From NCBI RefSeq assembly GCF_963576615.1, contig NC_088709.1, positions 14,142,764 through 14,206,763 on the forward strand: a stretch of DNA of 64,000 nt, written 5' to 3'. The position numbers and the translations under genes were made by a program. Under the pieces are notes generated by a model. That model was not told where the DNA came from. It saw only the letters and a program-made list of their open reading frames with translations, and ran no database searches. This stretch comes from Watersipora subatra (Eukaryota; Bryozoa; Gymnolaemata; Cheilostomatida; Watersiporidae). This document shows, piece by piece, positions 16,801-19,800 of the stretch. The stretch's first letter is position 1. Each line of letters begins with the position of its first letter.

Positions 16801-19800
16801 TTTATATTTGATGAAAACTTGTTTCCAGTTTTCATCAAATATATAAATTCAAAATAATATAGAAAGGTTAAAGAAAAATAAACTCAATACTAATCTGTGT
16901 GACTTGCGACATGACAGTCCAATCAGAAGCAAGTTTAATGCAACTATTTAATATGTTGAGTATTTATTATCTGAACTCTTGAGGCCATCACATTTTACAA
17001 AACATGAAGGTTTTTCAAAATTTCACGAAAGCAAAGCTGCTGCGTGTTTCTAGGCCTTGAAATCTATCTGTTGGTAATAAAATGTTCTGTTTGCTGAAGG
17101 TTCACATTTTCAAACAATGGGAACATTAAACATTTCATTTTTGATACAGGTATTAGCTCATACACATATGTTGACAGGCTTTTCAGTGTTCACCATCGTC
17201 TGGTTTTTCCAGTTATTTGAAGTACCATTGCATAGGACTCTATGATTGGGTACTAATGCAAATGACGGCTTGCACTCCATTGGTCATTAGTTGACCTATT
17301 AAATTTTAAAATAATTTCTAACTAGTGTTCTTAATATTAAGCTTAACTTCTCCACGGAGCACACTGAAAGATGAAAACGCTAAGTCTTTATTTCAGGATA
17401 TTTCCATACTAGGAGGGGTATGTCCCCCCCCTACTACTCCATACAGCCATTTTAGCCATGTGACTCGCAATAAAATTTGGATCTTTTTTAGTGCATTTTT
17501 TACACCCTAATTTAAAAAAACTTCATTTTGAGTCGTTTTATGTAATAATTGAGTGATCCAGTTTTTATTTTAATTTTAATTCAATATGTTTCCTTTAAGC
17601 AGAATTCTTGTCCAACAATCATCATTGATACCTAATCAGCAATAAGCTCTGCTAAGCACATGCAAATTGGCTGTTGTTCAATATCATCATCTTCATTAGC
17701 ATGCTCTGGTCTTTAGTGTAACTAGCAATGCCACCCTAATGTAGGTCTCTACCTGAGTCTATGGTCTATGGCTAAGTTACCTGATCTCAGGGAGCCTAAT
17801 CAATTGTGTCTCAACCATAGAACGCAACTGTAAGTACAGGAGTGGGTGTGGCTAATCATTGTCTATGTTCAAGGCGGTCCAGTCTGCAGAACGTAACGGA
17901 TCTGTTTGTAATGGGCGGAGCTTTGGTTATGGAGTCCATTGTCTTATTTCACTGGTGTAACCGTATGGGTCTAGGTCCTCTTGGGATCACAGGCGTGTCT
18001 ATGGGAGGACATGTAAGTTGAGTGATTATTCCAAGTTTCATTTTTACTGGTGAAAAGATAACTCCTCACTTCATTCGTTATCTTACAAGTACAGTAGACG
18101 CCTTTATAATGTAACCCTCCTTTTATGTAAATTTCACTGAATGTAACGAATTTACTGTATGTAAAGTTTTTGCATCGCATTATGTAGGAAATTCTACATA
18201 AAGTAAAGCATCAAGTCGGTATGAGTTCTCAAATTCGATTTAAAGAACGAATTTAAAGACCCATAGGTCGCCTGTAAATTATAATTTCTTTTTGCCACCC
18301 TTGAGAAAGAAAGCGGCATAAAAGTAGTTATTATAAATTAAAAAATTTTTTTAGACATCCAATATTTTTTCTTTGCTGCACAGACTTTTCTGTTCAGAAA
18401 AAGGGATAAAATCGATTTGAGTTGTCATTAAAGGTGTGTTCTCCCCTTAATGTCAATGTAAGTGATAAAAAAGGGAAGAAAGTCATTGATACAAACCAAT
18501 AAAATCACAGTTACTGTACGTGAAATTTAAAAGCTCAGTAAGTTTCGTTTCTTTTTCATTCTATAGGTCTAAAGGGGTGGGAAGATCTTACGTATATTGT
18601 ACGTTTTGTATAATGTAAAATCCCCATAATATAAATGTTCTTGAAACGGATTACATACGTTGTAAGGGCATCTACTCTAGTGCTTGTTAATACACAAATA
18701 GTGGTCTATCAATAACTACAGACATGGGTTAAGGTATAAGCTTTGCTACATGTTTGCTCAAGTGTAAATGACTATGAAGATTTGATCAACTGGTCTAATC
18801 GGTTGACATTAGGACGTGGTGCGGTTAGTAAGAATAGCATTATGGGTTATTGTTATAGATGGCATCTGCAGCGGCGTGTAGCTGGCCACACCCAATCTCA
18901 CACGTTTCTTGCTTGTCCTGGTCTACAGCCAGTCTGTGTTTCACACAGGTAACACCACAGTCTAGGAGTGTAAGGAAGCGCATTGCAGCCTTAACAGTAT
19001 GATGGGAACAGGAGAGGGTTGAAAAAAATTAACTATTCAGAAATCTCAGCAATTACTAACGATAAACATATTTTTTCAGAGTTTGATCTCTGGTTTTCAA
19101 TCAACCTCTCTAGCATCATCTGGAGCATTATAGCCAGAGGAGGCTGCACTGTGGTTATATTGTGTTGGCTGATTTTGAGGTGTTTAACATCAGCTTGAAT
19201 ATATCTCTGTATTTTAAGATGGCCTCTCTGGCAGCCAGTAGCTGGCCTCATCCTCTCTCATTTGTACCATGTCTGTCTTGGAGTACAGCATCTATGGTTT
19301 GGACTCAGGTAGTATTCCATAATGGCCTACATTAGTGACTCTCTGAATTTTTTTAACTGTTTTTTTTTCTTTTTTAAGCTCATTTTCATTTTTCTTAAGA
19401 ATTTTTCATTTAAAGGTTCATCAGTTCAATGTGATCCATTTTGCAAAAAATGTTGGATTTGGTTCAGTGAAAAAATTTTATTGTCTGTACGAATAAATGT
19501 GTATTTTACTAGCCTGTGCGTCACAAATAAAGATATAAATGATGGTTTTATGAACCTGTCGGTCTGTCTATCTGAAGCTAGGGTTAAAAAATTTGATAAA
19601 ATCTTGTTTGTATTGAACTCGAACTAGTAAAGATATAAGAGGTGATTTGCTAGCCTGAGAAACACATATGAACACAGGAGTTAATTTTGTTACTCCGTGA
19701 GGCACGAATACAGGCTAAGCAAACATCCATCATCATATTCTGTGGATGCTACATCTTGCACATCAGATAATTTATCTCTGCCTAAGTACTTTTCACCCAT

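Follow-up and report, generated by a model that had tools for sequence, protein, structure and literature searches.

Tandem exons of which a transcript takes one or the other are an established kind of alternative splicing. In the available sections of the human and bilaterian catalogues (PMC5740500, PMC9741552), they are homologous neighbours of the same length and phase in which most changes are conservative, as in the pair described below; the catalogued exons were defined by junction reads, whereas the present pair is known from genome anatomy. The closest described system is coq-2 of C. elegans, in which two mutually exclusive 134-base exons, 6a and 6e, shift the enzyme from ubiquinone to rhodoquinone. 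According to the portion of that study available, the e-form, with its Phe-to-Leu and Ala-to-Ser changes, occurs only in rhodoquinone-making animals, there comprising nematodes, flatworms, annelids and molluscs (PMC7434440). The gene concerned here, ABHD18, was shown in 2025 to encode the lipase that acts on cardiolipin, a lipid of mitochondrial membranes, in flies and mice. According to that report, the enzyme hydrolyses (deacylates) cardiolipin in both animals; the species susceptible to fly ABHD18 are richer in acyl carbons and poorer in double bonds, and the one passage found on splicing, which concerns splice variants in fly strains, places no alternative segment at the site treated here (PMC12173737).

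The author of a preliminary description of the locus was aware of no earlier report of such an exon pair in this family, and none was found in the literature searched, which lay mostly outside subscription journals and supplements. Neither ABHD nor C4orf29 is named in the available main texts of the two catalogues (PMC5740500, PMC9741552), and a search combining "mutually exclusive exons" with "hydrolase fold" returned plant work only. The kind of pair is already known, while its occurrence in ABHD18 is new as far as the literature searched goes.

The window, that is, the whole 64-kb stretch of Watersipora subatra DNA that was analysed, contains an ABHD18 gene on the forward strand; its model spans 10896–26285 and has twelve coding exons, with exon 7 present in two copies. 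Exon 1 (10896..10996) was placed by its start codon at 10896, its frame, its GT donor and the match of the spliced product to the PF09752 profile. Exons 2 (11194..11278), 3 (12791..12891), 4 (13799..13877) and 5 (14780..14892) are bounded by AG and GT with fitting phase, and exon 6 (17874..18012) ends with the nucleophile elbow GVSMGG-H, which contains Ser202. Downstream of the pair, exons 8 (20677..20784), 9 (21091..21192) and 10 (21719..21862) are again bounded by AG and GT, all in phase 0, exon 11 (23273..23493) carries the likely catalytic Asp389 and His416, and exon 12 (26204..26285) ends in TAA. All introns are GT-AG with agreeing phases, and either copy of exon 7 yields an open frame of 454 residues. 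The product of exons 1–11 matched positions 1–342 of the 351 in PF09752 and scored 416.1 bits with the second copy (7b), 410.2 with the first (7a) and 341.2 with neither, against a cut-off of 21 bits; with the general hydrolase profile PF00561 the 7a form reached 21.6 bits, under the cut-off of 25.8.

The same exons 1–11 product was used as query against the chromosome-scale 784 Mb assembly (239 contigs), in which the window occupies C2:14142764-14206763, the best candidates being scored. All 12 matches listed were exons of one ABHD18 gene, with 7a and 7b recovered apart; accordingly, no retrocopy was present among these 12, and no second ABHD18 locus was found among the best-scoring protein matches. 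In a scan of genome contigs for bacterial relatives, none of the 12 pattern matches obtained with the 7b isoform was confirmed, and Rfam and tRNA searches of the 64-kb window gave no match. A phmmer search of solved structures with the 7b isoform returned 10 matches, all to apolipoprotein A-I in a helical region with E values of 0.09 and worse, and these were discarded as not meaningful.

Several repeats were observed within the gene. Intron 5 contains 29 copies of a 44-base unit at 94% (15208-16497); since this unit length is not divisible by three, open frames recur there mechanically. Intron 11 holds a 24-base tandem array of about 66 copies (24055-25624). In addition, a 41-base tandem duplication (21647-21729) covers the acceptor of exon 10; use of the upstream acceptor copy (start 21678) would shift the frame, with a stop at codon 312.

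Exons 7a (18859..18948) and 7b (19219..19308) lie on the forward strand, are each 90 bases long in phase 0-0 with an AG acceptor and a GT donor, and are separated by an intron of 270 bases (18949-19218). They are identical at 59 of 90 nucleotides and 22 of 30 residues, sharing the peptide CLSWSTAS, and their 31 base differences fall 10, 6 and 15 times on the 30 first, second and third codon positions, respectively. The two peptides score 121 with BLOSUM62, compared to 21–32 for the next best 30-residue window on either strand of the 64 kb. Among 75 open AG-90-GT windows of both strands, a mutual match was detected only between 7a and 7b, with the next score at 3 or less, and none of the nine other exons tested (1–6 and 8–10, with 11 and 12 outside the test) has a second copy. 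The pair thus has the anatomy expected of mutually exclusive exons: adjacency, like length, same phase and similar sequence. The coordinates, lengths, phase, AG/GT boundaries, peptides and 270-base spacing given in the preliminary description were all reproduced, as was its proposal of a tandem exon duplication in ABHD18 directly after GVSMGG. The number 7 holds for the model, in which coding exons alone are counted. The acceptors of both copies had been called good; that of 7a is the weaker, with a pyrimidine fraction of 0.50 compared to 0.68 for 7b, yet it is not outside the 0.45–0.68 seen for exons 2–6 and 8–11. Predicted pairing of the donors with U1 is similar for both copies (-8.0 kcal/mol for 7a and -7.8 for 7b, with exons 1–6 and 8–10 ranging from -4.3 to -11.2).

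Substitution rates between the copies were estimated by the Nei-Gojobori method, and are rough because they come from only 30 codons. The 21.2 silent sites carry 15 differences (pS 0.709) and the 68.8 replacement sites carry 16 (pN 0.232), a contrast with a Fisher p of 1.2e-4 on rounded counts, and pN was below pS in 99.95% of 2000 codon bootstraps. When 7b was allowed to drift freely, the proportion of runs in which the sequence stayed open with at least 22 of 30 residues fell from 1.3% at 0.3 changes per site to 0.07% and 0.003% at 0.4 and 0.5, respectively, and was zero at 0.6, 0.75 and 1.0. Similarly, an unconstrained 7a simulated at half the measured dS gave no such sequence in 20000 trials, and at half the dS that a pS of 0.5 would give, 8 in 20000. 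In a 114-residue context the PF09752 score was 149.9 bits with 7b and 144.0 with 7a, compared to 93.4–120.3 for all of eight drift decoys, which were free of stops and differed from the starting sequence by 31 randomly placed base changes. The introns flanking the two exons are unrelated, with 26–40% identity over 20–100 bases. As silent sites are near saturation, replacement sites are constrained and the flanking introns are unrelated, 7a and 7b are an old duplication of which both copies have been kept. The selection on both copies that had been supposed beforehand is thus purifying, and both copies match the family profile.

As a yardstick, the coq-2 pair was located in the same genome by a UbiA search of the assembly, followed by inspection of the region C10:14606001-14634000. 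An a-form exon (C10:14621824-14621691, minus strand, LTFNWG...TIYAHQ) and an e-form exon (C10:14618745-14618612, minus strand, ITLNYG...TIYSHQ), each of 134 bases with AG and GT, were found side by side, the latter bearing the Leu and Ser changes. Taken by itself, the rule given in PMC7434440 would make such an e-form exon a sign of a nematode, flatworm, annelid or mollusc; a search of the assembly for mitochondrial COX1 gave 0 matches. The two coq-2 exons differ with a pS of 0.763 and a pN of 0.312, versus 0.709 and 0.232 for the ABHD18 exons, so that the ABHD18 pair looks in its divergence like a pair of proven kind, coq-2 being known here from its exons. In both cases, two homologous internal exons of equal length would remodel the core of a mitochondrial enzyme near the substrate site. 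There are differences as well: double inclusion of the 134-base coq-2 exons breaks the frame, whereas the ABHD18 exons measure 90 bases; 2945 bases of intron separate the coq-2 exons, compared to 270 in ABHD18; and splicing and function of the coq-2 pair are proven in C. elegans, whereas the ABHD18 pair is a candidate described from genomic sequence.

It is probable that the old duplication of exon 7 serves transcripts that take either 7a or 7b, producing two 454-residue enzymes with the same triad in which the exchange would tune the pocket. The same data bear on the other origins that such a pair could have. One copy could be an unused, decaying remnant, more likely 7a, whose acceptor fraction of 0.50 compares poorly with the 0.68 of 7b and which scores about 6 bits below it. 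However, free drift would hardly leave an intact frame, intact splice sites and 22 of 30 residues by the time silent sites are near saturation, and all eight drift decoys scored 24–51 bits below 7a, which makes a remnant very improbable. Two haplotypes or a collapsed paralogue set head to tail by the assembler are conceivable in any single assembly, with nothing specific in support here. Against such an artefact, to which we give hardly any credence, stand the dissimilar flanking introns, the 31 differing bases in 90 and the recovery of only one ABHD18 locus from an assembly that has 61–77 Mb contigs.

Mutually exclusive use of 7a and 7b is the likeliest reading of the anatomy, and the devices that could impose it were compared with those of human clusters. 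In the portion of the human catalogue available, 60% of clusters have lengths not divisible by three, 9% have a potential for steric interference and 0.79% show U2/U12 incompatibility (PMC5740500). The ABHD18 pair is without the commonest of these safeguards: with an exon length of 90, divisible by three, 7a and 7b can be included together without a frameshift. Nor is there a steric block, since some 235 bases separate the 7a donor from the candidate branch point of 7b, near the end of the 270-base intron, while the criterion for interference is a distance below about 50 bases. A U2/U12 mismatch was likewise absent, all sites being GT-AG with the U12 type judged by eye. Competing RNA pairing with both copies was no better than in crude shuffles, of which 30/30, 6/30 and 29/30 were as good in three settings, and the fold of the intron between the exons was not unusual (z -1.0, with 29 of 200 shuffles as good). 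The regulator motifs TGCATG, TTCTCT, TCTTC and TGTGTG had 0 sites each in 18013-20676. As frameshift, steric and U2/U12 safeguards are found only in part of the human clusters, their lack does not exclude mutual exclusion. Nevertheless, the permissive length of 90 bases and the lack of a classical enforcing mechanism are also what would be expected if both exons were retained without an either-or choice, with one as default and the other as a cassette, or with both joined in a 484-residue protein that has the segment twice. The joint product of exons 1–11 still scores 439.8 bits with PF09752, but the rise is due to the segment matching the profile in two stretches, and a hydrolase core with a second helix-strand unit would not be expected to fold. 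Such retention of both exons is, in our opinion, unlikely.

Within the reading of mutually exclusive use, an acceptor-like site in the intron suggests one way in which exclusivity could be enforced. At 19054-19079 on the forward strand, a TACTAAC, a T-run and a CAG form a strong acceptor-like sequence, a candidate decoy, without an open exon behind it: read-in from this site meets a stop after 17 codons, and 7b extended to it would measure 229 bases and break the frame. A 7a donor seeking a partner would meet this site first, and the resulting transcript would stop 17 codons on and be degraded, so that no stable mRNA with both copies would be produced. The combination of TACTAAC, T-run and YAG occurs only here on both strands of the 64 kb, and was obtained in only 4 of 4000 Markov 270-mers. 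On the other hand, the looser CTRAY pattern occurs 13 times in the window when this site is counted, and exon 6 splicing to 7b would meet the same site. Moreover, the site drew attention only in retrospect, and none of the TACTAAC type is present in the 28 kb coq-2 region; it is therefore regarded only as a candidate, and its action as a decoy, though possible, is doubtful.

Returning to the probable either-or use of the exons, the two 454-residue forms of ABHD18 would differ in a 30-residue segment directly after the nucleophile elbow. By motif, the catalytic triad consists of Ser202 in GVSMGG (exon 6) and of Asp389 in TQDAYMP and His416 in DRGHVA (both in exon 11), the latter two being likely to act as triad residues. 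The swapped residues, 207–236, begin five residues after the nucleophile, and since the triad lies in the shared exons 6 and 11, they would contain no catalytic residue. In alpha/beta hydrolases, the nucleophile elbow is followed by a helix, a core strand and a loop to the cap. Residues 207–236 should therefore correspond to the post-nucleophile helix, the core strand that comes after it and the loop leading to the cap, an embedding in secondary structure that human and bilaterian exons of this class also show. The eight differences between 7a and 7b (Ala/Leu, Cys/Ser, Ile/Leu, His/Phe, Ser/Pro, Leu/Met, Cys/Val and Phe/Trp) mostly replace one non-polar residue by another with a side chain of different size, and the segment ends in LCFTQ in 7a and in MVWTQ in 7b. 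In view of these size changes, we think that the swap would affect the pocket on its acyl or membrane-facing side, by tuning it and not by turning catalysis on or off. The fly and mouse enzymes belong to the same family and, as far as the available text of that report goes, share the Ser-Asp-His triad of the bryozoan gene (PMC12173737). The animal could thus probably make two versions of ABHD18 by using one exon or the other, and two enzymes differing in only eight residues by the active site would constitute a ready experiment on cardiolipin selectivity.

The presence of both pairs in one genome raises the speculation that 7a and 7b could be the lipid counterpart of the coq-2 pair in a mitochondrial splice switch that depends on oxygen, operating in step with that pair and changing the cardiolipin species that are degraded, thereby remodelling the inner membrane for anaerobic respiration. 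Literature searches linking cardiolipin with hypoxia and molluscs, or rhodoquinone with cardiolipin and anoxia, yielded incidental mentions only, and we regard such a coupling as distinctly improbable. If the splicing of ABHD18 followed oxygen as that of coq-2 does in helminths, cardiolipin turnover would be linked to anaerobic mitochondria.

Other features were detected around ABHD18 in the window. Upstream and in the opposite direction lies a methyltransferase-domain exon (5244-5867, minus strand; Methyltransf_11, 44.4 bits), which we take to resemble NDUFAF5. Downstream, a fragment of a retrotransposon reverse transcriptase is present on the minus strand (50998-52092; RVT_1, 99.3 bits), followed on the plus strand by KH-domain (55677-56051; 41.7 bits) and DEAD-box (62342-62587; 40.1 bits) pieces, which presumably belong to a DDX43-like helicase gene.
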